Assembly: GCA_037127255.1 (NCBI GenBank)
Contig: JBANSL010000006.1
Coordinates: 84,003,350-84,067,349, forward strand
DNA length: 64,000 nt
Reading direction: 5' to 3'
Source of the DNA: Persicaria tinctoria
Taxonomy: Eukaryota; Streptophyta; Magnoliopsida; Caryophyllales; Polygonaceae
The position numbers and the translations under genes were made by a program. Below, piece after piece: positions 28,444 through 52,545 of the stretch. The notes under the pieces are model-generated. The model did no database searches. It had not been told where the DNA came from and saw nothing but the letters and a program-made list of their open reading frames with translations. The first letter of the stretch is position 1, and each line of letters begins with the position of its first letter.

Positions 28444-29190
28444 TAATGTGCGCTCAAATAACCATGATTTTCACTTACATCCATATCGATTTATGTATGC
28501 ATTTCATGTTTCTGGGTTTGATTTATACAGAATCTATGTAGTTTATGCTTATTTGCCAATTATGGAGGTCTACACTAGTTTCTGTTTAACTTCGCAGAAA
28601 TCGAGACATTTTACAAGCAATTCGAAGAAGGGAAGAAAACTGTCAAAATGATCGAGGTCGACTACAAAGAGTCCAAGGTTGAGCGGAAGCCGAACCAGAA
28701 CACTTCGAGCAGAAGAAGAGAAGAAAGCCACTCAACAGGACCAGTCGACGTCGACCAAACTGGTCGTTGTGGAGTACTTTTGGTCGATAATACCTCCTGA
28801 GATCGAGACCTAGCATGAGACTAGTCGAGAACACAAAGTCTAGTCGACGTCTAGTAAACTACTCGATGTCGAGTACATGTCGAGAGTAGTCCGAGTCGAG
28901 ATCGAGGACGAATCTGAGAAGAAGACGTCGACCAAACTTTTGGGCAGCTGCAGGAAAGTCGACAGTGTTGTTCAATATCGAGTACTATACTCGACATCAA
29001 GTAACTCTTTTGGTCGATTTTGAGAGCGATTTGGAGCTTAAGTTGTGAGCGCTGACATGCTTCCTCGTGGATACGATCCTGAATACCCTACCACTACATC
29101 AGGAGGGATTCTTGTAATTTTATTTGCTTGCACAGGGAGTTGGTTTGATATTATATTTTATATTTATTTGACTAGTTTCCCTCCACAACA
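28444..29190 (+). repeat. Gypsy-C 5' LTR with internal deletion (747 bp)
   Basis: Starts TAATGTGCGCTCAAATAACC and ends CCTCCACAACA. Compared with the 3' LTR and the Gypsy-A LTR it lacks about 1 kb covering the TATA box and leader hairpin. The deletion joins the U3 array of TCGA palindromes (about 28740-28910) to the U5 array (about 28925-29025). Confidence 0.85.
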
Positions 29191-29195
29191 AATTT

Positions 29196-29213
29196 TGGCG
29201 CCGTTGCAGGGGA
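29196..29213 (+). promoter_or_regulatory. Gypsy-C primer binding site, tRNA-Asp type
   Basis: TGGCGCCGTTGCAGGGGA, one mismatch to the complement of the tRNA-Asp 3' end, as in Gypsy-A. Confidence 0.88.
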
Positions 29214-29355
29214 AGCTATCAATCGCGCCCTTTTTAGTTCCTTTTTACTCTTTTATTTTTCTTTTTGTTTTACAGGTGCATGCGAAGAACTGATTGCACA
29301 CCCATCGATCCTATTTTTCTTTTTCCATCTTCAGAAAAGGCTAAGGAGGAGATTC

Positions 29356-31169
29356 ATGTCGACTACCATCGAGAACGAAGGACAACTCACACCAGCACAT
29401 GAGCTTGAGAAACTCTGCAGACGGGTAAAGGAGTTCACCACCAGGGAGGCAGAATACGCCTGGCGAGAGGCGGAATATGCACAGATGCAGTAAAGGTGGG
29501 AGGCAAGGGTAGATCGCAAAGCCCATGCTAGAAGAGAACTCAAGGAACAACTTCGGAATGTCCCTGCAAGCGCAAAGGAATATATGTATTCGACTTTGCA
29601 TGTTCCAGAATAACCAATCGTTCTCCCTCGCGTTAATTATGAAATCCATCCTTCTTTTATTTCTGAAATTAAGAGGAATCAATTTCAGAGGAGATCCAAT
29701 GAATGCGATTTAGAGCACATAACTATTTTTGTAAAATTATGTGTGTTGGAGAAATGTTCATTGTGGGGGTTTTCATTTATGTCTTTTGAACTTCCTTTTT
29801 TGTCCCACATTGAATACTAAGGGGTTTGGGGGGTTGTTTTTAAGGAGGAGTTATTGAAGGGGTTATTGAGAGTTGGGATAGGGATCCCACAAGCGCGCAC
29901 CACCAGCACCACCGCCACCGCCGCCGGTCCGGTCCGTGTTCGTGACACGTGCGCGGTGTGGTGTGGTGCTGGTCATGTTTTACGTCGTGTTTTAATTCCA
30001 TCAATAAAATTGGCCTCGGATAGAGTTGAATTAGGGTTTGACCGATTCAGCTTTGTCACACGTTTTTGAAAAACGGTTTCTGATTTGGTCCGAGATTTCA
30101 GGGAGGTGGAGCGTCTCTTCTCTGGTTTTAAACCGACGCTGCCCTTCAGTTTTTCACTCAGAAAACTCGAAACTCCTCCTTCTCTCTTTTTCTTTTGCAA
30201 CCGTTCTGGGTCCTGGGTGGTTCCATTGCTTCGACGGCGAGTGCACGCCTGAGAAGCCGTTGTGTATCCTTGGGGGGCGACGCCAGTAGCCGACCTGCAC
30301 CGTGGTGTCGGGGCGATTTCGCTTCTAAGGCAGTTGTTCCATTTATACCACGCCACAACCTTAAACACGGGTTTTCACTGATTTTTCTAAGCGGTTTTCC
30401 CAAACTAAATTGAGGCTACATTCGCAGATTCAATCCAACAATGTGAAGCTATTGCAGATAGTGTCAATCTAGAATATCTTAAACTAAAGGCTTTTCAATG
30501 GTCTTTTGCAGGGAAAGCTCAACATTGGCTCGAGGGTTTGGCTCTATAATCTATTCACACGTGGAATGAGCTAAGGGATTTGTTTCTTGATAAATTCTTT
30601 ACTCCCGCCAAAACAACGCAGCTCAGACAGCAGATCACGACTTTCAAACAGGAGTCAGAGGAAACACTCGCACAGGTCTAGGAGCACTACAAACGACTGC
30701 TGAAATCATGTCCTACGCATGGGATACCTTTGAGACGTTGGCCAACTACGACAAAGGAGCGGATCCACCAACAAAGAAGCGGATCAACAACTATACGACT
30801 TACAAGTATCTCGAGCACACACCACGGCGTGCTTTTGATACCTTTGAGATGTTGGTCAACTACGACAACTCTTATGGGACTTCTGCGGCCACTGATGAAA
30901 GGTATGAAAGGCATGCCCCATCTATGCCATTATATGAGCCAACAAAGGAAGTTGATCCAGATGTCAAGGATCAGTTTCACAACGATCAGGTATGTCGTCT
31001 CACCAAACAAGTTAAAATTCTGTTTAAAAACCAACCTTGTTTGGAGTGTGGGTTTGTGAGGCACAACACTACTGCGTGCCTACATGCCGACCATGTGCAG
31101 GTTGCAGAGACCCACAAAGAGGAGCGCTATGCGAGGGGAAAGTACTCAGGGCAACACCAGCCCTAGCAT
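29356..31169 (+). pseudogene. Gypsy-C gag, interrupted by a solo LTR
   Basis: Starts at ATG 29356 (MSTTIENEGQLTPAHELEKL). An N-terminal coiled, charged region is followed by VLPRVNYEI-like sequence, then the S1 solo LTR (29744-30440). After it the frame gives YLKLKAFQWSFAGKAQHWL, QLRQQITTFKQ and RINNYTTYKYLEHTPRRA. A CCHC knuckle (CLECGFVRHNTTAC) is intact near 31040. Stops at about 29490, 29610, 30550 and 30680 and a partial duplication of the 'ETLANYD' segment (30730 and 30850) show decay. Gag would package the element RNA. Confidence 0.8.
29744..30440 (+). mobile_element. S1, Copia-type solo LTR (697 bp)
   Basis: Termini TGTTGG and CCAACA with exact 5-bp target copies ATGTG (29739-29743 and 30441-30445). 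It lies in Gypsy-C gag, whose sequence continues on both sides. It shares GCTTCTAAGGCAGT and ACCACGCCACAACC with the LTRs of Copia-J in reverse orientation. A solo LTR is left when the two LTRs of one element recombine. Confidence 0.9.
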
Positions 31170-31456
31170 CAAAGAGACCCCCCGCCCTACAGAGCTCCTG
31201 GTCACCCTGACAGGGAAGGTAAGAAAGATGACCTGTAGGTTATTCTTGATGAAATGCAGAGGAATCACATAGAAAGCAAGCAATCCATCAATTCCATCCA
31301 CACTCAACTGCACGACATCAACTCCAGACTTGGGGAGATCGACATCTGGTGAAAAACTATGGAGACCCAAATGGGTCAATTTCATCAATCCCCAAACAAT
31401 CACGTACGCTCCCTGGATCTTCTGAACCAAATCCTAAGAATAAATCTGTAGGATAG

Positions 31457-31690
31457 GTGGCTGCCATGAATATAAGGAGTGGGCGACAACTGCAAACGCC
31501 CGAACAGAAAACGGAGGAGGAAACTGAAGGAGACTACTTGACGTCGACCAAACCAGTCGACGTTGACCAGAATCTAGTCGATGTCGACCAGAATGCAGAA
31601 CCTGCCCAGAAGTGGACTTCTCCAGTCGATGTCGACTAGCCCGTACTCGACGTCGACCACACTCCAGCACCGTCGAGGAAGAAAATGTTG
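31457..31690 (+). pseudogene. Gypsy-C gag-protease linker coding TCGA-palindrome units
   Basis: An open stretch (ATG 31463) of about 60 codons in which TCGA-palindrome units read VDVDQ (TKPVDVDQNLVDVDQNAEP). The array is at about 31545-31660. It links gag with the protease and ends at a TAG. In the protease-distal array (32400-32640) the same DNA unit is read in other frames as STST and STSP. Confidence 0.6.
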
Positions 31691-31849
31691 CCATTCCCAA
31701 CAAAATCTTTGAATGACCCAGCGGAGAAAAAGTTCCAGAGTTTCGTGAAGATGCTCTAGAGACTCAACGTCACCATTCCTTTCACAGAAGCCCTTCACAA
31801 GATACCTTCATATGTCAAGTTCCTTAAAGACATCCAGAGAAAAGGCCAG

Positions 31850-32182
31850 ATCCAGGTAAGTTTTCTATAACTATCGGATTCAGTCAATACAAATTCAATG
31901 CTTTATGCGACTTAGGAGCCAGCGTCAACATCATGATGTTATCAATCTGGTCCAAAGTCATGATAGGAGCTCTAGAGCCTATGGATGCCCGACTCTACAT
32001 GGCGAACAACACAGTGGTCATCTCAACATGCATGGTGGATGATGTATCGGTGGAAGTAGGTAAGTTATTAATCCCTGCTGATTTCTTAGTTATTGATATG
32101 GCAGAGGACCCTTCTTGTCCAATCATTCTAGGAAGGCCTTTTTTAGCGACTATGGATGCCAACATAAGCGTAAGGAAGTGAG
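31850..32182 (+). pseudogene. Gypsy-C aspartic protease
   Basis: The retropepsin domain reads FSITIGFSQYKFNALCDLGA, with the catalytic DLGAS intact, then MDARLYMANN, VEVGKLLIPADFLVIDMAE, and CPIILGRPFLATMDANI. It ends in a stop at about 32181. The motif is better kept than in Gypsy-A (DLEAN). It would process Gag. The frame is interrupted upstream around 31757 and 31850, so a complete product is unlikely. Confidence 0.75.
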
Positions 32183-32399
32183 TGCTCACTTTCAAGATCA
32201 GAGATGAGGTAATTGAGTATTTATTTTTAATAAAATTGAAAGGCATACAGGTCATGTGGAGTTCAAATTAGTTTGAGCTAGGTACATCACTTGCGGTGAG
32301 CCTAAGGTAAGAAATATCACCTCCGAAGAGCTGGAGAAGAAGGCTATGGAAGCCCATGTGCAGGAAATCATGGAAATTCTGAACGAGGAGACAAAGAAT

Positions 32400-32640
32400 C
32401 TACTAGACATCGACCAAGGTAAGTCGACATCGACTAACAATTTTTCAGAATCTTTGCCAGGTTTTAAGTATGGGGCTGAGGTCGACCAGAAGTACTCGAC
32501 GTTGAGTACTCTAATCGACATCGACCAAACTCAGATGCTCCCAACGACTTCTCCTTTAGCGAACAACCCACCAGTAGCAGAGGAGTACTCGATGTCAACT
32601 AGTCCTACTCGAAGTCGACCAGATCCTGAGGTCCCGAATG
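32400..32640. repeat. TCGA-palindrome array after the protease
   Basis: Repeated ACATCGACCAA, AGTCGACATCGAC, AGTACTCGACG and CGAAGTCGACC words within an open frame (32346-32780). This part is followed by the integrase C-terminus, so the deletion of reverse transcriptase and integrase core lies at or near the array. Confidence 0.7.
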
Positions 32641-32769
32641 CAGATTCAGCGAAGGTAAGCCGAGGTAAGGACATCTCTTCCCCAATTTCAATAAAAGACA
32701 TATGTATACATGGAAGAGGTTTTCCTTTGTATGTGCGCTTATGCAGGGTTTCCAATGACGATCCGAAGG

Positions 32770-32956
32770 AATCGAAGTAGGAGACAAGGTGTATGTCTCC
32801 AAGTCAAAGAATCATTCGTTTCCCAACAAGTTCAATAACAAAAAGATGGGACCTTTCACGGTGCATCAGATCCATTCCGCAAGATTACAACTGATGGACA
32901 AAAATGAAGTCTTATTTGAGGTCCAAGCCACTTGGGTGTTGCAGATGCCACCTTGA
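32770..32956 (+). pseudogene. Gypsy-C integrase C-terminal domain
   Basis: The segment reads EVGDKVYVSKSKN, FPNKF, KMGPFTVHQI and NEVLFEVQATWVLQMPP and then stops (TGA at 32954). This matches the C-terminal part of plant Ty3 integrases (usually VGDKVLLFNS...FPGKL...GPF-V). The zinc finger and DDE core are absent. It is the last coding part of the pol gene. Confidence 0.65.
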
Positions 32957-33109
32957 GTAAAGAAAGAAGAAGTCGGCCTAGCGACTATAAAATCTAGAGC
33001 TTGTAATAAGACAATCGATTTTTAGGATTTTTAGAAACTTTTGGTTTTTGTTTTAAACACTATTATGGATTTTGTCGTTCTAACACAATTTATAGGTACA
33101 AGAAGCTGC

Positions 33110-33341: not shown

Positions 33342-33383
33342 TACAGTGAGGACACTGTAATATTTAAGTATGGGGTAGGGGAA
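33342..33383 (+). promoter_or_regulatory. Inner hairpin and GGGG-rich tract of Gypsy-C
   Basis: TACAGTGAGGACACTGTA (33342-33359) is a perfect 7-bp stem with an AGGA loop. It is followed by TTTAAGTATGGGGTAGGGG, resembling the polypurine tract at the 3' LTR. Compare 48290-48324. Confidence 0.6.
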
Positions 33384-33433
33384 GGGCTGACTTTGTGCAT
33401 ATTTGATTATACTTTGTGCATATATTATCATAT

Positions 33434-36400
33434 TGTAACGGCCCGGGATTGTGATTCTCGGGTTACGTTTTGAGAGATGAAACCCCTCGTTAGGATCTTG
33501 CGCACCGAGTACAGGTTGAAGGTTTGAAATTCTAATCTAACATTTTGAAGTGGGATTTCATGCCCAAAATTCGAAGGGATCGTTGGAATCCCCGGGGAAG
33601 TCCCCTATACCTGTCGTAAGTCTAAGTGTGAAGAAACCAATAATCATACAAATAGCGGAATCAAGGTGTAATACAAAAGAGTGCCACGGCAGAGCCGGGT
33701 CAAAACCAAATCAGTAAGCGTATTTATCGAAATCAAATAAGCGATGTTAGTGAGGTTAGACCATTTCTTTGCAATCGCCTAAGAGAGTTCCCATGTCACG
33801 GAAGTAACGAACAATCTTGCTACAAAACAAACCTAAAAAAATATGTATGCAGGGCGGTGTCAGATCGAAGCCTACGCAATACAATCCCAAACAAGCAGAC
33901 ACATACACACGCTAGTCCTAATAAAGATGCTTCTAGATGCAAGGCGGAATATTAACACACTAACATGCTCCTAAGATCAAGTGCTTAAATATAATAAGGC
34001 CTTAGCACCGAATACCAAGTGGTATATCCCTCTCCTACCTCCACCCCCTTCCGATAGGGCGGAGACTGGCCAGCTCGTGAATGCATTCCATGATAATCGG
34101 GCGGCACACATGCCCAACCTGTTCCACAATAAAGCCCGTAGGCATCTCATAATATAAGGAAGTTTCATGACTCGATTGACTCAGGACGGGATCCGATGGG
34201 ACTAGGTCGTCCTATAACCCTAACAATGACTCTAGTTACTTCACAGATAACGGCCGTTCTGTTTACAAAAGCAATGAGTAAACGAATGCTCAATTATGAG
34301 TGGAATCCTAGCAGGATACTACATGAAATGCTTCATTATGAATGCAAGCACCTAGTATGCACATGGCTACAAGCAGGGAGATCTCTTTTCGAATCTGAGT
34401 AAGCTCGTATAGGAACTCACCTAGCAGTGTAGAACAGCAAGGTAAGCATTACGATAGATTAAAGATCACCTAGATACATATCAGAACACATATATATAAG
34501 TCTACGTCTAATAATTCAAGCACTCAAAGCATACATCATTCAATAAAATTAACCACATCATAATCATCATTCTATGAAGATCAACCATTCATCTCATTGC
34601 CACATTCCGTAAGACCACATCATTCTCATCATTCTATTCAACCACATTTATATTTCCGCAATAATATTCAGCATTGCCATTTATCTCAAGTTCACCATAT
34701 TCATCATAGCTCATAAGCGATTAGAGAAACGATACATAACTTAACATCTCATCATGCTATTAGTCAACCAATCATGTCATTAGTCCACATATGTCATGAT
34801 ATTAGACAACCATGCACATCAATCATGCTAGTTAGTCATCGAGTACATAATTCCCGAGTTAGTCACGAAAACCGTTTTAATTTCCTTTGTGAAAACCAAG
34901 CTTCAGTCTTCAAGACAATTATTCCAAAACAACTCGACAAAGTTAAGGTATTCTCAAAATCCTCTTTTAACTTTATTAAATCAATTTCCATATATCAAAT
35001 CAACTCTAACCTTTAAAACATTTTTCAAAATTCTTTTCCGAATCCAAGTCCAATTAAGATATTTTTCAATCTCAACAATAACATTATACAATACTCGATT
35101 TTCAATTTAATTTAATATTTATATCTATATTTATAAGTCTTAAAGTATAATTTACATTTTTACCAAAATTTGGTCCCAAAATCCGGATGTATGAAGAAAG
35201 ACCCAAATTCATTTAAGGCTTCTAAATTTTAACATAAATAAAAAGAAAACTCAAAACCGACCCTCCTATTTTATTAATTTCCCAAAACCTGACACACCTT
35301 TTCACTAAACCCAACCGAATACCCTTAAACAATTAAAAGGCCCAAATCATTTTAGTTCTGAAAAGACAAATTTTTTCGGCCCACCAAATCAGGCCCAAAA
35401 GCCATCCAACCAAATTCATTTCTTCAATTATGAAAACCGAAGCAAGGTTTTAGAACAAAGGGCTGGGCCCCAGTGACGTGGCGCTAAGGTGGAAGTGAAG
35501 TGGAAGGGGACCCAAGGTCATCTCCATCCTCCTGATGATGTTTGGAAAAACACAGAGAACAACGCTCCTCTTGTGTTCGAAAAGAAAAACCGAAGGAGGA
35601 AGAGAAAGAAGGCCGCCGGCGGTGGCGTCGAGGCTCCGACCTCTCAAATCAACTAACTGAAACTGATACACACATGAACGGGAAGGGGAAAGAAGAAGGA
35701 GTGGGAAGAAAGCTCACCGAGATTTTGAAGCTTCACCGGAGATTTATCGAGGTTAATCGGGCTTGTCGGTGGCCCAATTGAGCTCGCCGGAGGTAAATCG
35801 GTACCGGCTTGCCCTGGGACAAAGGGATGGGTCATAAGGGCGGACCTTTATTGAGTTTTAGAGTGAGAAGAGTGAAAAGAGGCTTACCAAGGTGCTCGGA
35901 GAAAATAGAGCGAAGGAGCTGGACGGCTCGACGTTGTCTCCGGCGTCGGAGGAGTTGCTGTTGGGCTCGACGGGTAAACAGAGGCAGGGTTCTTGAGGTG
36001 CTCAGAGCTGTTCGGGGTTGCTGGAAAGAGAGGAAGGAGAGCTGGTGGTGGTGTGGTCAACAGTTCAAGAAGGGGGAGTGGTGGCGGTGTTCTCGGTCAG
36101 CAAAGGAAGGGACAAGGAAGAGGGAAAGGAGGGAAGAACTTTGGGAAGGGTTGTGCTTGAATTTTGTGTGAAGGATAATGAAAGAGGGGAGAATGTAGGT
36201 GTTGAAAATGAAGGGAGGGCTAGGTTCTGCATCCCCCTTTTTTCTTTTTTCTGAAAAGATGAAGAGAGGTAGGCAGGTCTTTGGCCAATTCAGAAATGGC
36301 ATAGGTAGGTGTTGTTTGTTTGTTTCCTATGTAAGGGAGATTCAAGAAATGAGGGTAGGAGGTTTAGATAGAATTTTACCCCAATAGGAGGGGATGATTT

Positions 36401-36691
36401 GGAATAGATAGGAATGGGAGAAGTTGACCGAATTTGTGGTCCCGGGTCGGGGATTTGAATTTACGACGATTGGTCTTTCAACTTCCGCTCTCTCAATTGA
36501 TTATATTTTTTTTCTTGAAATTCCGAGGGAAGATGTTGCCACATTAGTTTTCAAAATTTTATTTAGGTCGGAAATCCGCTTCGTAAGTCTTAAAATCTGA
36601 GTTGGAGAGTTTTCCGCTAAATCCCGCTTTAAAATTCATTTTGATTTTATTTTTTCGTGAAATTTAGGGTTTGAAAATCCGAACCTTTGCA
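33434..36691 (-). repeat. Gypsy-I, 3' LTR of a minus-strand Ty3 element (about 3.26 kb)
   Basis: On the minus strand it starts TGCAAAGGTTCGGATTTTC (36691) and ends GGGCCGTTACA (33434). It is preceded by TTCGGGGACGAGACTTG and a purine tract (AGAGGTGGATGA), as in Del/Tekay chromoviruses. No second LTR or pol frame is seen in the window. The left flank CATAT (33429-33433) is the presumed target copy. Within it, 35440-36200 is a GC-rich leader-like region. Confidence 0.5.
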
Positions 36692-38882
36692 TCATCCACC
36701 TCTAAAAACAAGTCTCGTCCCCGAAACTAAAATCATTCGAAAGTAGGGGATGAAGTTCGAAACAGGTGAGTCCAAGGATCACGCCATCGATCCCGTAAGT
36801 GCCTCATAAGGGCCCCTATGAGATTCTCACAGTATCTTCATCATGATCATAATATCCTCGATAGGTCATAGCGAGAGTGTGATACGGGCCCTTACCACAT
36901 CCTTGCCCCGAGTGCTCGATTATATCATAACTCGAATAGCATTACGACATCTCCACTAGGTCTTAGCAAACAGTCTATAAGAGCCCCTATAAAATGCATG
37001 TATCCACTTCGTGGGGTGTCATAATGCAAGCTCGGTTAGAAAATTTCAAGAGGGATCTCAGTTTGAAAAGGTTTTGTCTCAAAATCATCGAAGTTCTTGA
37101 TCGCGTTCAATTTCTCGAAATTCAAGTTAGTCCTTTTTAACATCATTCAAAATCCCTTAACCCGATGTTAGTCAAGCAAGTTTCAAATCTCAGGAGGTGG
37201 AATCATCCACCTCTAAGGGCTAATCTCATATTTCCTTCCTAGGTTCCCAGTTAGAATCACATTTCATCAATTCAGTTCTAGCATCCGAGCAATTCCAGTT
37301 CACGGCATCATATACCATATAACAATTGTATAACATAGCAATCGTATCATGCATTCATAAACATATCATACTCATGTTAGGGTAGTCACATGCCATAACA
37401 AATCTAGCATAGCATCGCACATAGTAGAATTCTTTATATCATACCCCAGAAGTTGCACATCATTTCAGTCAGATAAGCACATCATACTTACGCTAACTAT
37501 CAAGCATCATCACATTAGAGGCAAACAAGTACTTCCGTACACTATCATTTCATCAAGTTCAGTGGATAAATACGTTAGTACTAACAGCCTACTATCGTCT
37601 ATCGCATAGAACTCACAGAACACTCGGCCCCAAGTAAAGACTACACCAGATCACATCCTCAAGGGAATCTGCCTATAACTATCAACCATAACAAGACACG
37701 ACCACTACTCCTTATCTCTCACATCAAGATCAACCTCACCTAGGTCTATCAACTCAAATCTGATACTATTTCTAAATACCATTGCATTCCGCTTAGTACA
37801 CAATCTTCCTAGCCTCATAACTATGCGCAAATCAAGGCTTGCATCCCAAACCAATTACTAGGTCTCCCAACTCTTACGCCACCAAACCATGCATCTAAGG
37901 ATCAATCGACTTCAATATCCCAAGCTCAAGTCCTAACCTTCCACTCAACCATCTACAACCAATATCTCAGAGTTCACGATTGCCCGATTCCCTATTCTGT
38001 CAAGCTCAACACTTCGACCATCTACCAAGACTCCCTATAGACACATCCCAAGTCCTCGATTGAACTGCTCTCATGATAGATCTAGACGTTTTTTAACAAT
38101 CTCTCTTACTTTTCCTAGGCTCTTAAGACTCCGTCTGACCAACATCTCCCAAAGAGACATCTCGAATCACCTTGCTATCATGATCATACTTCCAACACCA
38201 CTAACCACTCTCACTAACCATCCACCTCTAAGAACCCAACTAATATTGGCCATCTCACGCTTGTTACCCTCGACTAGCTCTAACGCAGAAGCCCATCTAG
38301 TGCTACTTTCAACCATGAATCACCAAGACCCTCATTGCCAACGCCTATCCTCAAAGATTAACCACTGATTCTACCTACTCATTCCATTCCGAAACTCACG
38401 AAACTGTAACCGCTCATGACTCCTCAAAGTTGACTTACTCTATATCCTCTTCCCAGCATTTTTCGAAATTACCTCAAGCTACCACTCCTTAACCACGACG
38501 CCTTAGTCCCTAAGCCTCTATCCATCAACCATTCTCCCCAAGGAAACTTTATGTCATCCTAGCTCGAATTACCCATAACATCGCAACTTGACCAATTCTC
38601 TCACAATTCTCTAACCTATAGGATTCCACCAAGTACCACACTTTACCAAACTTTCTAAAATCCTTCTTCCTCTAGCGCTCTCAATGCCTTACGCTCGCCT
38701 AGTTCTCAATTCCAAGCTCAGAATCTCCATATCTCATCCTCAAGCCTATGGTCTTACTAGAATTCGCAACGTCATCCTTGCCTAGCTACCAACCTTTCCT
38801 CAAAAACTTATCTCACATCCTCAATTACCTCAATAGCCATAATAATCTCCACTCATAACTTCCGGTGCCTTCCCACAGAGAA
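36692..38882. other. Interior of Gypsy-I, no gene recognised
   Basis: About 2.2 kb. The first 20 bases form the purine tract of Gypsy-I. Around 37190 GAGGTGGAATCATCCACCTC is an 8-bp inverted repeat repeating the tract's words. The rest has only short frames and no motif. Confidence 0.35.
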
Positions 38883-40044
38883 TGTAGTGTGATAAGTACG
38901 AGTCGATCCCACAGAGAATCAAGTTATTCCTAAGTTAAGTTTATTTACCAATTAGTATCAAACGGGGGGTTTTTGGGTGGTGAAAATAAGAAAGAAAATA
39001 AAATAAACTATAAACAAATTAATGCAAAGCAATTTAGAGAAAATCGTTCCACCTACAACTATCCACTTTATTTGGTTGAATTGATATTGTAACTTCCTCT
39101 TGTCCTTTTATGATTCCTATGAATGCCCTTGTCTCAACCTAATATAGTTACTAGTCCAATCAGTCTTAGAAACCCTTATCAATCGAACAGTCCCTAAAGA
39201 AGGATTTAACCCAATTGATAGCTTTAAGACCAGAGATTAACCAAGGTATTTGCAGTCCCTAAAAAGGGATTTAACAACACATCCAACTTCATACCCATCC
39301 AATTAGTTCAATCAGCCCTAAAGGGATAAGTTTGCCACTTGGGTTAAGGTTCACAATCAGGAATCTACAAAACCCTAGCAATTGAATTGATTCAACCAAG
39401 TTGATCTGACAAGATAAAATAAAACAATAAAAAATTCAAGCACAAAGAAGTCGAAACATTCAATATGGAAAATAAGGAACAAGAATTAGAAACTCACAAT
39501 TCAATCTCAAACAAAGCTTCAAATTGTAGACAGAACGGGAGAGTTTAGGTCTCCAGAAAAATAAGACAAAAGACAATTAGGGTTAAGAGGAGAATGTAAA
39601 CAAAACTAGTCGGCCGGTCACGTTAACACGTTCGGCCTCTTTTTCACTTGCCGTATGAATGAATGTGTTATATATATTGCAATTCCCATCTTAACTATCT
39701 ATCTAAACTTTATATAATATTAATAATATAAATCTAATTTATCTATCTTATTCACGTAAATATAATAATAATAACAGTAACGTGGATAGCAACTTTCAAG
39801 TCATGTGCTTCTTCCGTAATTCATCAACCCGGCCCACCGTGGCTTCCAATTTGCAAAACAATTCCATATGTTACTATGGATCTCCGAATTCATACGATCC
39901 AGCTCAAAAATACCTGAAATGTATAAAAACACTAGTGTAGACTCCAAAACCAAATAATATAAATTAAGCTATAAAATATGTAAAAATGCTCTAAATTAAT
40001 ATGCAACTCTATATCTAAAACATGACTAAAATATACTCTAACCA
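38883..40044 (-). repeat. Gypsy-H 3' LTR (about 1160 bp)
   Basis: On the minus strand it begins TGGTTAGAGTATATTTTAG beside the GGGG-rich tract and ends near CACACTACA. The left edge is uncertain, because CCCACAGAGAAT occurs on both sides of it (38871 and 38909). Confidence 0.6.
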
Positions 40045-40082
40045 ACTACCCCGTGCTTAGACTTTTGCTTGTCCTCAAGCAA
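40044..40082 (-). promoter_or_regulatory. LTR-proximal hairpin and polypurine tract of Gypsy-H
   Basis: Minus strand: TTGCTTGAGGACAAGCAA (40065-40082), a 7-bp stem with an AGGA loop, then AAGTCTAAGCACGGGGTAG, then the LTR. Confidence 0.7.
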
Positions 40083-43000
40083 TGAAAAACAAATATAGAA
40101 TTAATTATCCGACAAATAAGATATTCATGCTATAATTTAGAAAAGCAACATCACGTAGTAGGAGCGATGAACAACAGAACAGACATCCTAACAAGTATAT
40201 GAGCGATCCAATAGTAAAGACAAATTTAATCCAACCTCACCGAGATAATGTGTTTCACTCAAGCTCTCATGTGTTTAGGCTTTAAAGTTCAACTCTCAAC
40301 TCAATCCAAAATGCTTTATACACCGTGAATGTCATTACTTGAAAACAACATCATGAGGAATTTTATAAGGTTGTAATGGGGCTTTGGTAGGAACATAAGG
40401 TATGAGAAATATTTAGGCTTGTGGTGCTAAAAATCCGGGAAAAAAGAACAACAACCAACCAGAATAACACCAAAACTTCCATACTTCACAAACCATTCCA
40501 ATAACATAAACTCCAATACACATCAATAAGCACTTCGATTTCAATAGCCATACAACTTATGCATTTTTTTATTTATTATGATGACTTCTTTTCTTTTATG
40601 CTTACTTTTGCCCCTAGGTGAATTTTATCCTCCCTAGGTTCAAGCTTACTAGACTTTTACTCCTAAGTGAATTTTATCCTCCTTAGGCCCCTAGTAATAA
40701 GTCATCTCTATTATGCAATAAGGGTTACCTTATTTCGGCTATGCCTCTCGCAATGCACAACCATATATACATCATCTCCACTCAAAGCAACTCCAACACA
40801 AAGTTTTTTCACCAATTCTTCTCCTAATTCCCGGGTAGGGTCAGGCTAATCATTGGTTATGATATATTTTTGTGGAGCTATAAAAAAAATAAGCTTTAAG
40901 GCTCAGATGGGCTTCAAGCACAGGATAATGCAAAGGGTAGATAAGGTATAATACGGCTAAAGAAAACATGCCTCAATCATTTGAAATTCACAAGCAAAAG
41001 ACATGTGCAATACAGTATTGAAATAAGAAGCATATGGAGAGTATAATCACACAATAAAAGCACAAGAGAATAATATGTAAAGTCCCTATAAGGCCAAAAC
41101 AAACTCACAAAGGGTTATATTTTTGCTAGATTTCAATTAAACCTCAACTATGAACCATACTTGCTCAATTATATTCTCAAATCATGCTCTAAAATCATTT
41201 TCAAGCAATTCAATCAAATCATGGGATTTATGCAATTACGATCATAAAAATGAATTAGAGGACAAACTAAACTAAGGGTATCGTTAATAACACCTAAATG
41301 CAATGAAATGCATAACAAAAATTGAAAAAAAAAACAAAAAAAAAAAAAGCAGAAAACTAACATATATATATATATAAAGACGGAGCTACACTTAAATTCC
41401 TCACCCCATGCTTAAAATCTTACTTTGTCCTCAAAGTAAAGAAAAAGAATGAAAGAAAGGTAGAGGAAACTCATAAAGTAATAAGGCATTCGAAACAAGC
41501 TTTCAGTTCAAATCCGGAATTGGTGGTGTAGTGTAGCCTCTGAACAGACCAAGAAATTCAGCAACCTCTCAAAGGTATAGGACTAGGGTGTTTGAGTAGA
41601 AGCTTTCAGCAACAACTTGGATGCATCTAACATTGTGAAACGTTGGAGGCAGAAAAAATATAGGCAGTCTCCTTTGTAATTTGTCCTGGCCAAAACAAAA
41701 GACAAAGAAAACACACAACAACCAACCACATTCCAACATCCAAGAAAACTATATCATCCAAGTAAAAGAACAAAACCAAAGTCCAAACAACTAAAATCGG
41801 CCCCAATAGCTCATACTCAATCACTTACGACAAATTTAAAACATGATTTTCAAGTGATTTCAGGGAAAAACCTAGCTAATAAAAATTAAAGCATGTGCCC
41901 CATCTCATAGTAGCTATACTTGTCTTGATAATAGCACTTGACAATAACAAAAATCAGCCCTATAGATCATGCTCATCCATACTTTGCAACTAATGAAATT
42001 CATGAAAAGAAATTGATATGGACACAGGGAGCAGTAAACAACAACCAATCATAAAAATCATATAGGCCGGGATGAAGCACAAACTAACTGATGTAGAGAG
42101 TAGCAAAAATAACTCAGCTGATTTTAGATATGATGAGAAGAAACTGATCAGCTACAGAGTTCAAGGCATAAGAGTTTCAAAATCAACATTAAGGCATCTC
42201 AACAAAATCATCAATAAACTCGCTCAAGAGCAAACAGACCCAAATGGAAAAATCTTATAGTACACGTAATCTAGTCCAGGAGAATGCTCAAAAGCCAGAA
42301 AATCATAGCACTACTCCCCTTAATCAAGGTAAAGACAAGCAACACGTAAAATTCAGACTAATCTCACATAACATCCAGAGTTCAAAGTTGAATAGCAAAT
42401 TATCAACAATGCAGCAGTTCAAGCACCTGTTCAGCACAATAGACTTCCTAGGACATTATCAATTACCCACTCAACAATTTCAATCACCAAGATGAGGCAA
42501 AATCCGGCATTCACCCAGCCCCACAACAATCGAACTTTCTCAATCAGTTCAACATTAATTAAGCACACAAACAGTCCGCAAGATCCCAAAATCGAAATCG
42601 ACAAACAATTAGCTCAGGGAGAAGATACCTGCACTGGTGGGGAGGCTAACGGTGGCAGCAACGGCTATCCTCGTCGAGCAAAAACACAGGGCACGGAACG
42701 ACAATAGCTGGAGCTCGTGGTGATGAAGGCGGCCCTAGAAAACCTGCGGTGGTCGGAAGGAGGCCCGGCGGAAGGATTTGAAGTGGTGGCTGGCAGACTC
42801 AAATTCGACACCAAGTCGGGAGTAGCAGCAAAGAGCGACTGAATGGTGGTGCGTTGCCAAAGAAGAAAGTCAGAAAATGCATCGGGACGAGCATTGGCAG
42901 TGAATCGCTGATGGTGATTGGCGACATCGGGAAGGTAGGGAAGAAGACGATGTACTGGCGATGGGGGAATTAGTTTCGCCGGTGTCCTTGGCGTGGGAGG

Positions 43001-43369
43001 CGATGGTTCTGGTGACTAGCAGCGAAAGGCAAGGAAATGAGAGAAAGGCCGGAGGCAGCAGGCGACTAGCAGTAGAAATTCCGAGAGGGGACCGGTGTAG
43101 GGGCAATGCTGGCGGTTGGTAGCCTGGCAGGAGATCGACGCGACTAGAGGGAAACAGGCCACCCTTGGGTTAGGTTCCGTCGAGACAAGGCAAAGGGCGG
43201 TGATGGTAGCCAGGAAGGTCTAGGGGTGGCGAGCGGTAGAGAACAAGGGCTGAGGGAGGCGATGTAGCGGTGGGCGGCTGGTGGCGGCGGGGCGGCGCTC
43301 AAGCAGGGTTGAGACGATAGAGAGAAGGGACATGATGGAAACAGGGTTTTTCTTTTTCTTTTCTTTTTT
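40083..43369. other. Gypsy-H 3' non-coding region, no gene
   Basis: Only short frames are seen. At about 40614-40690 GTGAATTTTATCCTCC occurs twice, both times flanked by CCTA(A/G)G-like words. 41320-41380 is A-rich with a short (TA)n. 42600-43340 is GC-rich and glycine/arginine-like in all frames, resembling a leader rather than a gene. Confidence 0.4.
41396..41438 (-). promoter_or_regulatory. Inner hairpin and GGGG-rich tract of Gypsy-H
   Basis: Minus strand: TACTTTGAGGACAAAGTA (41421-41438), a 7-bp stem with an AGGA loop, then ATTTTAAGCATGGGGTGAGG. Confidence 0.65.
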
Positions 43370-46300
43370 TTTCTTTTTTTTGGATGATTTTCATGAATAT
43401 ACCAAAAAAAATTTGTACTTTGCAAAAATAACAATGGGAGGTAAAAATTGCAGAGGGATTGCAAAATGACATATTTGCAAAATTTGTTCACCCGGTAGCA
43501 GGTTGCACACAAGGTTAAAAGAAAAAAGCGAGTGACATGTGTCAAAATGTGACAGGGGGTGAGATTTCATTTGGGTATAAAAAAAATTAAAAAAAAGAGG
43601 AGTTGGCAGAGTTGAGTGGAGAGAGAGGGGTGAGAGGACAGGATTTGTGGAGAGAGATGGAAGCATTTAATGCAAATAGTACATGTGACATTACATGCAT
43701 TAAATGAAAATGGGGTTTTGCACATATTAAATTCCCGCCCACCCAAAATGGAGGAATATCCGATGGGGAAAATAGGCGGATTGCATTCAGACAATATAAG
43801 GAGATGGGGGTCTCGACAGGTTGACATAACAGGGAATAAAAGCATATTATGTACTAGATGCCATTAACGTGGAGTTCGAAGAATAAAACCCATAAAATAA
43901 GTTACTAGCCAACCAAAGGGAAGTTCTAGTCATTAACAGAATATATATAGACGTACACAGGGATACACGTAGCACTTGTATACAATATACATCAAAGAAC
44001 ATGGGTAAGTATGGTTTTCGTTTTCAATTTACAAACATGGATTCTCCCTGTCCTCTCCTTACCCCCAACCGATACTGAAAAGACCGTCTTAATCTCTTTA
44101 TTTCGCAGGGGAGAAAGGGGTGGCCACTGAGGATGTGGAGGAGATGTTGGTCAAAGTTGTTCCGCATGTAGGGGACCCTCGACGCAAGAACATCGACCTT
44201 CACGAGGAGGTATTGTTGAAGTCGAAGAAGGAGGTGCAAAACCGGATAACATCAAAGACTAACTTGCCATTTTAGTCATTTATTTTACACATAACTGGCC
44301 GTTTAGTTTACCGACGATGCAAAAGACATATGTACGGGGTTTTTTGCTTACTAGTCAGTACACGATTTTCCCTAGCCAATAACATTAAAGACTAAGCCGA
44401 TAAAAGACAATCCCCTACCATATTTTATATATCTCAGAAACTTTCCAACATAAGAACAACAACTATTAAACCCAAACGAAATGCGTCATAATGCAACATT
44501 CGTAACAACCATCCATAATAAATAGAACCAAAGTGTCCACAACATACCTATTCAGTCATCAAACTCAAGGATCCAAAAGGTGGAAATGATTACACGTTTA
44601 GCAGGTGAACCAAAAACTACGAATAACTACATTTCCTAGTCAACATAAGTCCACAAAAAGTTCAATACAAAACAACATTAGCTGATAACGTTCTCAAGGT
44701 CCCGATTCCTTTCGACACACTTCAGGCCGGTGACGAGGCAAAATTCTTTGATGGAGAACCGGAAGAGTCGCCACTGGATCTCGTACCATGTCTCACACTT
44801 CTTCAATGTCTTCAATTGCCTCTCCATGAAGAAATGGATAAGGGTGCATCAATACGACACATTGGATCCGATCATTACAATGCCCTCTGGCTTGCTGACT
44901 TTCAACATTTTCAAATCAGCCGCAAATAGGACGTCGTCCATTCCTTTCAACAAGCCCATTTTCGAGAAGTGGCTCGACCTCCCTCTTAAATACTTTTCCA
45001 AAGGAAGGACTAGTGTCGACTGCACAAATATCACACGACACGACACGATTAACATCACCAAGACAAAAAGAAGGCCCTTAATTTGCCCGAGAAGTGATTA
45101 CAGTTAATACTTTGTTGTTCGACGACATCGCGATTTTTTTCCTTTCATTTTTCTCATTGTCTTCTTAATCTGTCATACATGTGTTCAGATAATACCCATT
45201 TTAGCAATAATCCTTGCCAATATATTCATATATCTAGCCAGTCAAAATACTTTTTCTGCCAAAACATATAACATTACATAAATGACACAACTACACAAAT
45301 GCCATGAATACAAATGTTCACATATTTATATGTCCCACAAATACACATGTTCAAATAATCTCAAAATGGTAACTGGCACAAGTAAAGAATGAAACAAACA
45401 CCACAAGTACACAACTACACAATAGTGTCAACCATAAAAAAACTTATGTAATACACATATGACAACCCTAGAAACAAATCTACATTACTCCTAAATGACA
45501 TCGTCCAGTGTAACATTAATGGCTTCAATCACAACATACTTCAACACATAGAAACAAACTTACAACGATGTACAAAGAATTCAACAAATGCTCAACTCAC
45601 GTGAATAAAGAATGCAACAAATGACACAAATATACAATAGTCTCAAATATCACAACCTTATGTAATACACATATCACAAACTTACAATACTCTCAAATGA
45701 CATCGAAGTGGTGTAATGTATTTTTGCACCGTTTGAATCATAACATACTTCAACATATAGCAAAAACTTACAATGATGTACAACTACCACCAAATGTGAA
45801 CATTATATTTAGATGCCACTATTTACAAATCAACCCCAATCTCCAAATTCTCCCAAAGTTCCCAATTTCCAAACTCATAAGCACAAATTCCACATTCTCC
45901 CCAAATTCACCTTTACCATATCCAACATCATATGAAACCCAACTCTTCCCAACTTCCCTAATTCGAAAAACAAAACACAAATTACTAAATCTAGCCACCC
46001 AACCGTTTCACTTAGCCAGACGAACGAATCTGCCTACCCTTTTCAAGTTTCCCAAATCCAGATTCGAAACAGTAATGACTTTTTTCATGTTTTCTGAATC
46101 CAAATTCGAAACAGTACTAATGGAGGTTTTCAATTCCTTTCTACCCTATTTGGACCTTCAATTTCATCATCAACTTTTCATCAATGCTGATTTCTCAACT
46201 AAATCTCAAACCGCCCAACACCAATAAGGTTAGGGTTTGTATATCATTTCACCCCATTCTCCCCAAGGCCCCCAATTCCACATTCAAGACAGTCAACCCT

Positions 46301-46860
46301 CGAAAAGTTTTTCAAGAGAAGAGAGAGATGATGAGAACTTACTTTTCGCAGGGGGTTCTTCCTCTTCGACTGTTATCGAACCAGAGGATCCCTTCGCACT
46401 CGTCGTCCTCCCTTTTCGACTTGCCTAATCCCTCCCTCCCTCCCTCCTTCTCTCTCCCTCTCGTGCGGTTCCAGTCGCACCCTCAATTGCTTCTTCAATG
46501 GTGTTCTCTCTCTCCTCTCTTGAAGGTCCTTCAATGGTAGTCGACTTCCTTCTCTCTAACCTTCGATTGCTTCTTCAACGGTGTTATCTCTCTCTCCTCT
46601 CTTGAACGTTCTTCAATTGTGTTCTCTCTCTCCCTTCTTGAATTTCCAATTGAAATAAAAGGAATGCTTTTTACCCTTGATTTGATGGCTCCCTCCTCTC
46701 TAACCCGGCTACCACAGGTTTTGGCCACCGGCTGTTTTTGCAAATTTGTGGGTCATTTTGACAGCTTTGCAATTTTAGGCAAGGGGGTTAGTTTTGCTAA
46801 CATCTCAATATTTTGGTATATAGACTACCATTTTCTCTTTTTTTTTTTACGAAAATAAAA
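43370..46860. mobile_element. MULE-1, Mutator-like element with long inverted repeats
   Basis: About 43379-43500 and the reverse complement of 46720-46850 align over more than 100 bp. Common words include TATATACCAAA, GCAAAA, AAATTGCA, CAAAATGAC and AAATTTGCAAAA. Long terminal inverted repeats of this sort mark Mutator-like elements. No MURA transposase is found; the interior has a DUF1985-like piece. The outer ends run into T- and A-rich tracts, so the 9-bp target copy could not be read. Confidence 0.5.
44690..45061 (-). pseudogene. DUF1985-like fragment
   Basis: The minus strand reads MGLLKGMDDVLFAADLKM, HFFMERQLKTLKKCETWYEI and FRFSIKEFCLVTGLKC. The last block matches DUF1985, a plant domain found in proteins of Mutator-like elements that also carry a Ulp1-type C48 protease. 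An in-frame stop occurs at about 44847, and no protease part was found. A plus-strand reading at 44105-44270 (EDVEEMLVKVVPHVGDPRRK) is also open but unidentified. Its position inside long inverted repeats supports a Mutator-like origin. Confidence 0.5.
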
Positions 46861-47121
46861 AAAAAATATAGTATAAATTAATTCTAACTTAAAATAAAAG
46901 GAATAAAGGAAAAAAACATACATTGGTTTCTACCCAACCTTTTTAAGATCCGACATTGTTAAAGCCCTCAGTAATTTATCATAATCCCGTGCACACATCT
47001 CACAAGGCACATCATAGCACAATAAATTGAAAACATAAAATGTGGAACTCAAGACCCCTTCCAATCTATAAAAGAGTCTAGCATGACCTTCCGCAAAAGG
47101 AATATGATACCACCAGCACAG

Positions 47122-48021
47122 TTACGCTGGTGGCTTTTCAAAATAGCAATCAAAATGATCAATATAATCACCATTACCTTCAAAATTGCAAAAGTTTACC
47201 TTTATTACCTCTTGAGCCTCGACTGATGGCTCTAAACCTGATTCATCTATGAGCGAGCTCAGAATGGATGTTGCAGATGGAGTAGGAGACATATCATATG
47301 TAACCTCATGCGCCGACTCATGAGATTCCAAGTCAGGAAGCACTAGACCCTCTTCTCCATCGTCGAAGACACTATCGTTGTCTGCAACCAATTCCTCTTC
47401 ATCTTCAAAGCTCATTTCTTTCTCACCTTTTGCACTTAAAATTTGAATAAGTTGGCTCATCTGATTCTCCAAGTTCTTACAGCGGCTCATTTGTTCCTCC
47501 AATTTTCTGATTCGACTCATTTTTCCTTCCTCTAACTGTTGCACCACTTGAGTAAGAGTGTGCAATGGATCCTCCAGGTGTGTGACAGAGTCCTCCATCG
47601 GCGGAGAAGACATAGCCAGCAAGACTTCTTGTGAAACATGGTAATCCATATAACAGAAAAAATCCCACAACCCCGACAATCCTCCTAACCGTTTCAGGCC
47701 TCCGTTACTCATTTACTCAGCAAGTGCTCGCGTCTCAACAGTCATCCTTGGGAGATAAAAATAGATCGACCCTGCCTACGCTGAGATGTTAGTTTCGCAG
47801 GATATGACACCAAGGTGAGGAGTCTGAAGCACTAAGTATCCGGGGCCATTCATGACACCCATATTTGTGACTCGCGAAAAGGTAGTGCTGAGGTTAGAGA
47901 GGTAAAACATTATATTGAAAAAAGCATTGAGCGAAGGAGCAAAATGTGAGAAATCAAAGGAAGACTGAATGTGGTATGAAAGTTTGGAAATTATTCCATT
48001 TCCCCGAATAATTAGCACCAC
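47122..48021 (-). pseudogene. Unrecognised acidic, coiled-coil frames of Gypsy-H
   Basis: Two minus-strand frames, 48021-47776 and 47712-47122. The second has 196 codons. It has a likely coiled coil (VVQQLEEGKMSRIRKLEEQM), then an acidic stretch (EMSFEDEEELVADNDSVFDD), and ends EGNGDYIDHFDCYFEKPPA. The first contains NAFFNIMFYLSNLSTTF and GVMNGPGYLVLQTPHLGV. Neither shows a zinc knuckle, protease or polymerase motif. Position and orientation suggest a Gag-related or accessory protein of Gypsy-H, but I do not recognise the family. Confidence 0.4.
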
Positions 48022-48289
48022 ATGGAAAAATATATTCCACCTTAAGCCTTTTACCCATCAACTCCTTATTAATCGAGCTCAATTGAAGTCCTCTTGATTA
48101 TTGTTGCTTTGTCACTTATGGATTGTTTTGCATAATCCTCCTTTTGTGTGCGAAGTTTCTTTTATTCACAGGCATGAATTTGGTGACATTAGTACATTTT
48201 CGAGAATGGTAATTGATTGCATGGTTATATAAGAATGAATCTATGATGTTAAGAGTTTAATTTCTTCCCCTCTATGACCATTAAAAGTA

Positions 48290-48324
48290 TTGCTTGAAGA
48301 CAAGCAAGCTTAAGTATGGGGTGT
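48290..48324 (+). promoter_or_regulatory. LTR-proximal hairpin and polypurine tract of Gypsy-C
   Basis: TTGCTTGAAGACAAGCAA (48290-48307), a 7-bp stem with an AAGA loop, then GCTTAAGTATGGGGTG and the 3' LTR. Confidence 0.75.
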
Positions 48325-49272
48325 TGATGTGTGCTCAAATAACCATGATTTTCACTTACATCCATATTGATTTCTGTATGCATTTCATGTTTCTGGGTTC
48401 GATTTATACAAAATCAATGTAATTTATGCTTAATTGCCAATTATGGAGGTCTACACTAGTTTTTGTTTAACTTCGCATAAATCGAGACACTTTACAAGCA
48501 ATTCAGGGAAGGGAAGGAAACTGTCAGAATGCTCAAGCTCGACTACATAGAGTCCAAGTTCGAGCAGAAGCCGAACCAGAACACATCAAACAGAAGAAGA
48601 GAAGAAACCAATTCGACAAGACTAGGCGACATCGGCCAAACTGGTCGATGTCGAGTACGTTGTGCCGACAATACCTCTAGAGAACGAGACCTAGCACGAG
48701 ACCAGTCGAGAACACAGAGTCTAGTCGACGTCGAGTAAACTTCTCGATGTCGAGTACATGTCGAGAGCAGTCTAGTCGACGTCGAGTACTTTACTCGATG
48801 TCGAGTAGATCCCAGAAGTCGAATTCGAGTCGAAGTCGAGTGGGAATCCGGATGTGAGATTACTTGGGCATAAAGGCACGAGATCTATTAAGATTTATCC
48901 ATATTAGGAATTCCCATATTTACTTAGGGAGTTTTAATTATTTTATTTTTACTTAATTGTTGAACATTTATATTAAGCTTTTAGATAGATAAATTTAGAT
49001 AGAGATAGATTGTTCTTTCCTAGATTATCTAGGATTGAACACTATAAATAAAGCCATAGGGGCTGAGATTTAGGATCATTCTACAACACATTCTAATTTA
49101 CATTCGTAGGTAGGAGTTTTAGAGGAGCTTGGACGAGTGGAGTTGTAAGAGTTGAGAGACGATTTGGTTTCGTTCGGTTGTAAGCTTTCGTTTGATTTAA
49201 TGCAATTAGTTCTTTTTATGAAATTGTTGATGTTTTTTATGATGAAGAGCGAGTAGTCACCCAACTTCTAGG

Positions 49273-49289
49273 GTCGGGGTGAGCCCGAC
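49273..49289 (+). other. Conserved GC-rich leader hairpin (Gypsy-C copy)
   Basis: GTCGGGGTGAGCCCGAC about 230 nt downstream of the TATA box; 6-bp stem, loop GTGAG. Confidence 0.6.
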
Positions 49290-49376
49290 GGCAGCCATGT
49301 AAGGTAATCCATAAAAGGTACAACTTTTATTGCAATTTCATCTTCTATCCCTAATTTACATTATTCTTCTACAACA

Positions 49377-49885
49377 GTCGAAGGCACTGTTATAAAAATC
49401 GCGCCTGGGTGCCGCCTAGGCGCTAGGCGGTAAGGCACCTAGGAATTCTTACGCCTAGGTGGTCTCTAGGTGGATTTTCACCAAAGCATCACCTAATCCC
49501 GCCTAGGTTGGTGATTATTTAGATTTAGTTTCTAGGTGAGTGATTAGTCAACTTATAGTTTTTATTATCCCCCAAGTCAGGATGCATTTACTTTTGACTC
49601 AAGCCTATGGTTTTGGATTTTATGAGGTTTAAAGTTATTAGTCGGACGAGCGCTTTTACATTTATTGACTTTAGTGTTAGTTAAGCATACCAAGTTTGAG
49701 TTTATGAGTGATATTATATATATTACTTCATTATATAAATTATTGACATTTTCTATCCATTGAAATATATGGAAATAATCAAGTTTAGTCTAAGTCCGCC
49801 TAGACGCCCACCTAACCGCCTAGGCGCTAGGTGGCCACCCACCGCCTAGCGACCGCCTAGCGCCTTTTAGAACACTACTCGAAGG
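49377..49885. mobile_element. MITE-X, 493-bp hAT-like miniature element
   Basis: Element 49385-49877. Ends CACTGTTATAAAA and, on the other strand, TAGTGTTCTAAAA. 8-bp flanks GTCGAAGG (49377-49384) and CTCGAAGG (49878-49885), one mismatch. Subterminal CCGCCTAGGCGCTAGG words in both orientations. No coding capacity. Confidence 0.75.
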
Positions 49886-50368
49886 TGATCCTTATTTGTG
49901 TTATTGAAGTGAAAGTGATATTAATGCAAACTTGGATTAATTATGTGAAAAGGGTTGTAACAATTTGGGTTTATGCGAAAGCGTCTATCTTTCTAATTGT
50001 TAATCCCGAAAGGTGTTTGATGAAAAGGCATGATCTTTTATACCTTTGGCATGATTCTTATATAGTTATCGTTGTGGCGTTGAAACCCCGATTCTAGGAG
50101 CTTTTAGTTTATTGAATTACATTCTTCGAAGGTGATCCTTATTTGTGTTATTGAAGTGAAAGTGATATTAATGCAAACTTGGATTAATTATGTGAAAAGG
50201 GAAGTAACAATTAGGGTTTATGCGAAAGCCTCTATCTTCCTAATTGTTAATCCCGAAAGGTATTTGATGAAAAGGCATGATCTTTGATACCTTTGGCATG
50301 ATTCTTATATAGTTATCGTTGTGGCATTGAAACCCCGATTCTAGGAGTATTTAGTTTATTGAATTATA
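49878..50368. repeat. 245-bp tandem duplication in the Gypsy-C 3' LTR
   Basis: Two units beginning TCGAAGGTGATCC, at about 49880-50123 and 50124-50368. They are nearly identical and both end TTTAGTTTATTGAATTA. The Gypsy-A LTR and LTR D have one unit. Confidence 0.85.
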
Positions 50369-50734
50369 TTCTTCGAATTTTAGTTTATTTCTGTCTTTTA
50401 TTTCATTGCAAAGCTACGGTTTTTGTCTGCACTGACACTCGACATCGACTACAATCTAGTCGACATCGAGTACTATTGGTCGATATCGAGTACTTTTCTA
50501 CTCGACATTGGCTATGGTGTGTTCTGTTGTGCATGTGTAGGAAAGTTGACAGTGTTGGTCGATATCAAGTACTATACTCGACATCGAGTAACTCTTCTGG
50601 TCGATTTCGAGAGCGATTTGGAGCTTAAAAGGCAAGCGCTGACACGCTTCCTCGTGGATACGATCCTGAATACCAGACAACTACAGTAGGAGGGATTATT
50701 GTAATTATATTTGCTTGAACATGGAGTTGGTTTG

Positions 50735-52492: not shown

Positions 52493-52545
52493 GTTTGATA
52501 TTATATTTTATATTTATTTGACTAGTTTCCCTCCACAACAGTAAC

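Follow-up and report, generated by a model that had tools for sequence, protein, structure and literature searches.

A covarying hairpin upstream of the outer and inner polypurine tracts of Athila-like Ty3/gypsy elements in Persicaria tinctoria: a candidate cis-acting signal for plus-strand priming

In a 64,000-nucleotide stretch of the Persicaria tinctoria genome, hereafter the window, two long terminal repeat (LTR) retrotransposons, designated C and H, each carry two copies of a short hairpin followed by a purine-rich tract. We favour, with moderate confidence, the reading that hairpin and tract form a module of Athila-type Ty3/gypsy elements, acting in cis in outer and inner plus-strand priming. 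On the forward strand, element C has its inner hairpin (TACAGTG-AGGA-CACTGTA, RNA fold -7.0 kcal/mol) at 33342-33359, with the polypurine-like tract TAAGTATGGGGTAGGGGAAGGG at 33365-33386, and its outer hairpin (TTGCTTG-AAGA-CAAGCAA, -6.6 kcal/mol) at 48290-48307, with the tract TAAGTATGGGG at 48311-48321 and the 3' LTR starting at 48325, 17 nt past the stem. On the minus strand, element H has its inner hairpin (TACTTTG-AGGA-CAAAGTA, -4.5 kcal/mol) at 41421-41438 with the tract TAAGCATGGGG at 41404-41414, and its outer hairpin (TTGCTTG-AGGA-CAAGCAA, -6.6 kcal/mol) at 40065-40082 with the tract TAAGCACGGGG at 40049-40059. The original prediction, made from the letters of the window, had named four such hairpins, a tract after each and two copies per element: all four hairpins proved exact, a tract of the form TAAG[TC]A[TC]GGGGT begins 3-6 nt past all four stems, and both C (33342 inner, 48290 at the 3' LTR) and H (41421 inner, 40065 outer) agree with two copies per element.

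A perfect hairpin with a 7-bp stem and a 4-nt loop is not by itself rare in the window, in which 41 were counted with any loop. An ARGA loop was found in 4 of these 41, and all four directly precede a TAAG..GGGG tract. When 100 first-order Markov surrogates of the window were examined, ARGA hairpins were present at a mean of 0.12 and a maximum of 2, and none of them preceded a tract. At the gathering score, no Rfam family matched the window. A wider scan revealed a fifth hairpin, absent from the original prediction, at 36711-36728 on the minus strand (AGTTTCG-GGGA-CGAGACT before TTTTTAGAGGTGG), which lies in a different element.

The arms of the stems vary in step while the loop remains nearly constant, and the idea of a selected structure is thereby well supported: covariation exceeded that of shuffled sets on 21 distinct hairpins. 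This set was drawn from the window and loci L023-L055, leaving out L056-L087, the assembly G001 and the second family described below, and in the script filter the loop and first 3' base were held constant. In comparisons that the relatedness of the copies inflates, 95.2% of the cells were paired versus 71.3% (standard deviation 2.8) after shuffling, 29 cells were changed on both sides versus 11.0, and the covariation score was 0.490 versus 0.109; for each of these values, 0 of 500 shuffles was as high. Controls in which the partner was slid gave at most 48.3% of cells paired and a score of at most 0.182. Pairs 3, 4, 5 and 6 are formed in 20, 21, 16 and 21 of the 21 hairpins, where the composition of the columns predicts fractions of 0.63, 0.46, 0.39 and 0.56; pairs 8 and 9, situated outside the stem, are formed in 5/21 and 6/21, not above expectation. 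Stems without pairing in related elements, which had been put forward as a sign of chance, are thus not the rule among the distinct stems of this genome, though single broken copies exist.

The same pattern was seen when one part of the hairpin was fixed and the remainder left free, all own-genome searches being made in the 1.68-Gb Persicaria tinctoria genome to which the window belongs. With the 5' arm fixed as TTCATTG, the sequence CAATGAA stood 4 nt further on in 93 of 100 places listed from a total of 2,385, and with TACTTTG, CAAAGTA was found in 84 of 100 listed from 176. With the outer stem fixed, the loop, as read by eye, was AGGA in 91, GGGA in 6 and another sequence in 3 of the 100 places listed from 12,931.

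For the complete cassette, a pattern composed of TGAGGACA, 8-14 nt and TAAGTNTGGGG, in which the two inner stem pairs were fixed and the outer five free, matched 25,785 times (13,008 forward, 12,777 reverse); the reversed-pattern control gave 0 and 0. The first 100 matches listed, all from one contig, were typed by their 3' arm as inner (47) or outer (53). Among these, 32 of the 47 inner copies have a same-strand outer copy 602-1851 bp downstream, 24 of the 32 pairs being spaced by 1164-1290 bp, and the opposite order (an inner copy within 3 kb downstream of an outer one) was found for 0 of the 53 outer copies. The inner GGGG tract, the retention of which the original prediction had made a point of, is therefore kept together with the outer one in most of the inner copies listed. 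The inner stem exists in several fully paired forms (TACAGTG/CACTGTA, TTCATTG/CAATGAA, TTCAGTG/CACTGAA and TACTTTG/CAAAGTA); at locus L045 it is, by eye, longer with one bulge (TTCTG-CATTG/CAATG-T-CAGAA). The outer stem is nearly invariant, since at the same loci it reads TTGCTTG/CAAGCAA or differs from it by a single base. Separately, four inner cassettes were observed on the minus strand of contig C1 (G000:C1:1796276, 1802946, 1809616 and 1816299), every 6670-6683 bp, which suggests a tandem array of whole elements, and three more are spaced by 3337 bp at C1:37294666-37301340.

Alignment of the cassettes gave information on the age of the pair. Inner C against inner H scored 56 (best of 100 shuffles, 45), and outer C against outer H scored 64 (best shuffle, 49). 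Outer H against the cassette of what looks like another plant (locus L010, see below) scored 72 (best shuffle, 38); for outer C against the same locus the excess was bare (43, best shuffle 41). Within one element, inner C against outer C remained under the best shuffle (36 versus 39), and inner H against outer H was marginal (53 versus 51). Because inner aligns with inner and outer with outer across two distinct elements, the cassette pair probably predates the split between C and H.

The fifth hairpin belongs to a second family, which we tentatively take to be chromovirus-type gypsy elements. Its stem contains one G-U pair; the purine tract TGTTTTTAGAGGTGGA follows at 36695-36710 on the minus strand, and then LTR-like sequence to about 33433, with ends placed by eye. 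Related copies are present in the same genome: a pattern with two inner pairs fixed gave 5,200 matches (control, 3), and among 18 fetched copies the stem was a perfect AGTCTCG/CGAGACT in 15, contained a G-U pair in 2 and a mismatch in 1. In the two copies read, none of the three frames on the hairpin strand is free of stops over about 1 kb upstream of the hairpin, and coding constraint was for this reason rejected as the source of the hairpin. It was also observed that, 450-600 nt before its outer tract, this family possesses a second tract copy, TTAGAGGTGGATGA (near 37200 on the minus strand of the window; at 376 in L104 and 487 in L105). This inner copy sits within a self-complementary stem, in L105 AGAGGTGGA-TGAT-TCCACCTCT.

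Athila-type cassettes from what appears to be one other plant were obtained at two loci, L010 and L019. When the complete 18-mer was searched exactly in genome contigs, 12 matches were found; at 11 of them, in records labelled bacterial or archaeal, the tract was absent from the next 52 nt. The twelfth (L010, LFMX01000071.1) is in an assembly of Candidatus Burkholderia humilis, and there TTGCTTG-AGGA-CAAGCAA is accompanied by the tract, an LTR-like stretch and the primer site TGGCGCCGTTGCCGGGG; since the hairpin comes with these three features, the locus was taken as DNA of the host plant, presumably a Psychotria. Positions 2085-8000 of L010 thus appear to be plant retrotransposon DNA in a bacterial assembly, which looks like contamination of the public record. 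The same assembly also contains ATGCTTG-AGGA-CAAGCAT, in which an outer pair is altered on both sides, TTTGCTCG-AGGA-CGATCAAA with one mismatch, and one copy whose loop is AGGG and whose tract is broken. When L010 was scanned for hairpins of this kind in general, GAATTTCG-AGGA-CGAAATTC was found in addition before TTTTAAGGAAGGGAGAATG, which resembles the hairpin of the second family. Among 100 genomes of the family of Candidatus Burkholderia humilis, the only match was in that same assembly (G001), and scans of viral contigs for the cassette gave no confirmed match. An alternative fold was noticed both in the window (40049-40082, minus strand) and in L010 (2275-2310): CUUGAGGAC pairs with GUCU(C)AAG, with which the tract opens, and hairpin and tract could therefore be mutually exclusive, in the manner of a switch.

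The role that we propose in plus-strand priming may be described as follows. On the strand of the genomic RNA, the module consists of a stem of about 7 bp closed by an A/G-G-G-A loop, a few nucleotides, and then the purine-rich tract; the copy at the 3' LTR would provide the ordinary plus-strand primer and the copy mostly 1.1-1.6 kb upstream an extra one. Reverse transcriptase (RT), copying the RNA, would reach the hairpin just past the copied tract and pause there. Because its RNase H trails by some 13-18 nt, the pause would bring that activity over the junction between tract and U3, and in this way the hairpin may cause the 3' end of the primer to be cut at a set position.

The distances observed are compatible with such a ruler. 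From the stem to the LTR, 17 nt were counted in element C of the window, 18 in L055 (where the LTR start was placed at TG by eye), 19 in L054 and 20 in L024; by eye, the values are about 16 nt for the second family in the window and about 17 nt for the L010 hairpin. If the plus strand is assumed to start 2 nt outside the LTR, the primer end lies 15-18 nt from the stem in the first four elements. The distance between the polymerase and RNase H sites is near 18 in human immunodeficiency virus (HIV). For Ty3, the two sites are given as about 13 bp apart in the available text of PMC5371799. A spacing of 17-20 nt fits the ruler mechanism. Furthermore, no LTR follows the inner copy in either C or H, which argues that the hairpin goes with the tract and not with the integration end; a role as LTR attachment site was rejected on the same ground. 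A bolder version, which we hold only tentatively, is that plus-strand priming in more than one plant Ty3/gypsy lineage shares the RGGA stem-loop as an ancient component, which would serve as a fixed-distance ruler, stalling RT and so directing the RNase H cut of the primer, and would be used twice per element in the Athila lineage.

Several observations weigh against the proposed role. The stems are weak (-4.5 to -7.4 kcal/mol for the RNA folding of 8 hairpins), and in 3 of 8 contexts of 47-50 nt the hairpin is not the best fold. The ruler mechanism is a proposal, and RNA that has been copied is in a hybrid where the hairpin would not be able to form. In the covariation set, the fifth pair forms in just 16 of the hairpins, and two of the five measures were uninformative: pairs with change on both sides numbered 4 versus 3.7 after shuffling, a value reached in 339/500 shuffles, and for further pair types the count was 7 versus 5.2 (52/500). 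Because copies of a family share descent, the covariation rests on few independent events. A pattern forcing the second 3' base to differ gave 488 matches (control, 7; L062 and L063 were dropped as chance), and pairing at that position was found in 10 of 27 distinct rows and not in the other 17; in the ten, complete stems from a further family are included (TTCGCTAG/CTAGCGAA and TTCACTAG/CTAGTGAA). Single copies with broken stem pairs occur, and the inner tract copy of the second family has no RGGA hairpin.

Among the alternatives, the one that survives best, unlikely as we consider it, is an action of the hairpin on genomic RNA outside reverse transcription, in packaging, dimerisation, export or 3'-end formation. 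The hairpin does have the look of a stem-loop of the RNA strand, and its loop hardly varies; however, it accompanies purine tracts at both sites and recurs before a different tract in the second family, neither of which is needed for such roles. Nothing in favour of an RNA 3'-end or export signal, one of the options offered earlier for the inner copy, was met, although no test was aimed at such a role.

That the module has no present function, the inner cassette being the relic of an old 3' end in which pairing persists as the copies are young, is improbable in our view. Some copies are indeed young, with LTRs 99.5% identical over 1,269 nt in the L053/L024 element and 99.8% identical over the 524 nt seen in L054, and the broken pairs mentioned above speak for it too. 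Nevertheless, the families differ in step at both arms, matching changes that are not expected of a relic, and order and spacing recur across families. We regard as slightly less probable again a structure that matters on single-stranded complementary DNA (cDNA), for example in the stop or restart of a displaced plus strand between the inner and outer starts: two such starts would overlap, like those at the HIV central tract in the portion of PMC3227589 available, but in the second family only the outer tract, and not the inner tract copy, is preceded by the hairpin. The least credible alternative is that a dimeric protein, for instance a transcription or silencing factor, binds the site as double-stranded DNA. 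Operators often take the form of 7-bp inverted repeats, but the half-sites differ here (TTGCTTG, TACAGTG, TTCATTG, TACTTTG, AGTCTCG) around an asymmetric and nearly constant centre, the reverse of what an operator should show, and a loop that is asymmetric between arms that vary points to a stem-loop.

The elements that bear the cassettes look, from their sequence, like Athila-type Ty3/gypsy elements. A gag domain (PF03732) was matched in L053, L054 and L055, and Asp_protease_2 was above the cut-off in L053 and below it in L055 and in the window piece. The ATHILA domain (PF03078) was above the cut-off in 1 of 10 open reading frames scanned, a frame of L045 (E 8.4e-6) that precedes an inner cassette, with no match among the window frames scanned, and no RT or integrase core was matched in the scanned frames of L053-L055. 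After the 5' LTR a primer site of the form TGGCGCCGTTGC[AC]GGGG is present, which may match transfer RNA (tRNA)-Asp. A tRNA-Asp primer site is stated for Diaspora, which is likened to the Calypso group, in the excerpt available of PMC1142308. The extra polypurine tract (PPT) that is reported for Athila4 and Calypso is seen as well in the inner-to-outer order of the matches listed above. As a side observation, L054 2788-6132 (G000:C1:4395000-4403600) has one open frame containing gag and, by eye, a stretch resembling protease and a C-terminal tail resembling integrase, and no RT or integrase core was matched there; L054 and the window region 29300-32957 appear to be non-autonomous Athila-type elements.

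The original prediction named no described structure of this kind in Athila/Tat elements. The inner tract is not new, because Athila4 and Calypso are reported to have one extra PPT in their linkers (Wright and Voytas 2002, cited in PMC2829016, available in part). No hairpin of this kind at a gypsy PPT was found in the literature searched, a partial coverage with the original Athila papers outside it. The full 18-mer was absent from the literature text searched, and for six shorter strings the matching papers among those listed have titles unrelated to retrotransposons. The new part thus appears to be the hairpin, which we have not found described, and not the inner tract.

Among known systems, the HIV-1 central polypurine tract likewise gives the plus strand a second start, distant from the 3' tract, but it is located centrally, in pol. 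To our knowledge, it has no covarying hairpin of this kind. Athila4 and Calypso are of the Athila lineage and have a single extra tract, placed between their last gene and the 3' LTR, and the accessible account in PMC2829016 mentions no hairpin for them. According to the same account, Sireviruses (Ty1/copia) have multiple PPTs and a conserved inverted repeat around the terminal one, and so resemble the present elements in repeated tracts near the 3' LTR; their tract, however, is in the loop, the right arm lies inside the LTR and the upstream tracts have no repeat. The arrangement here is different: the whole hairpin, with both arms, is upstream of the tract, and both tracts of the window elements have one. 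In the Conserved Hairpin Site of fungal GalEa elements, too, a hairpin is conserved where an LTR retrotransposon is primed, but in the part of PMC5445492 at hand it is placed after the 5' LTR, in Copia elements without a tRNA primer site, and its loop is its least conserved part. The 'miR854' stem-loop of Athila6 is a separate proposed structure, as far as the available text of PMC3276544 goes; Athila6 transcripts are reported there from Arabidopsis ddm1 or met1 lines.

How a single short purine tract comes to be chosen as primer has long been asked and has been studied mostly through the tract itself, and the structural basis of PPT recognition is called elusive in the text available from PMC3362945. 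If the present reading is true, a covarying hairpin at a nearly fixed upstream distance adds a structural signal to primer selection, one with tens of thousands of matching copies in a single plant genome and in at least two families. It would also provide genome annotation with a sharp marker of the 3' LTR boundary and of the inner tract.

The remaining parts of the two elements were located as follows. Element C (forward strand) has a 5' LTR at 28444-29190, with ends placed by eye, which is far shorter than the 3' LTR, its internal part being missing. The primer binding site TGGCGCCGTTGCAGGGGA is at 29196-29213 and is presumably of the tRNA-Asp type. It is followed at 29300-32957 by a broken gag and protease region, in which gag was assigned by likeness to a minus-strand element matching PF03732 and the protease-like piece (31828-32178) is below the Pfam cut-off. 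The 3' LTR (48325-50734, with an apparent continuation, by eye, at about 52496-52542) is 87-88% identical to the 5' LTR across the 464 and 211 nt aligned. Between the two cassettes of C lies other sequence, including element H, the cassettes of which are 1.36 kb apart on the minus strand. After the outer tract of H, LTR-like sequence runs from about 40044 down to about 38890, with ends placed by eye and not settled. A related LTR copy (50735-52495, forward strand) was observed to be inserted in the 3' LTR of C, which it breaks after 50734. Finally, at 53048-54391 on the forward strand, an apparent solo LTR of the H family is flanked on both sides, by eye, by the 5-bp repeat AATAA.

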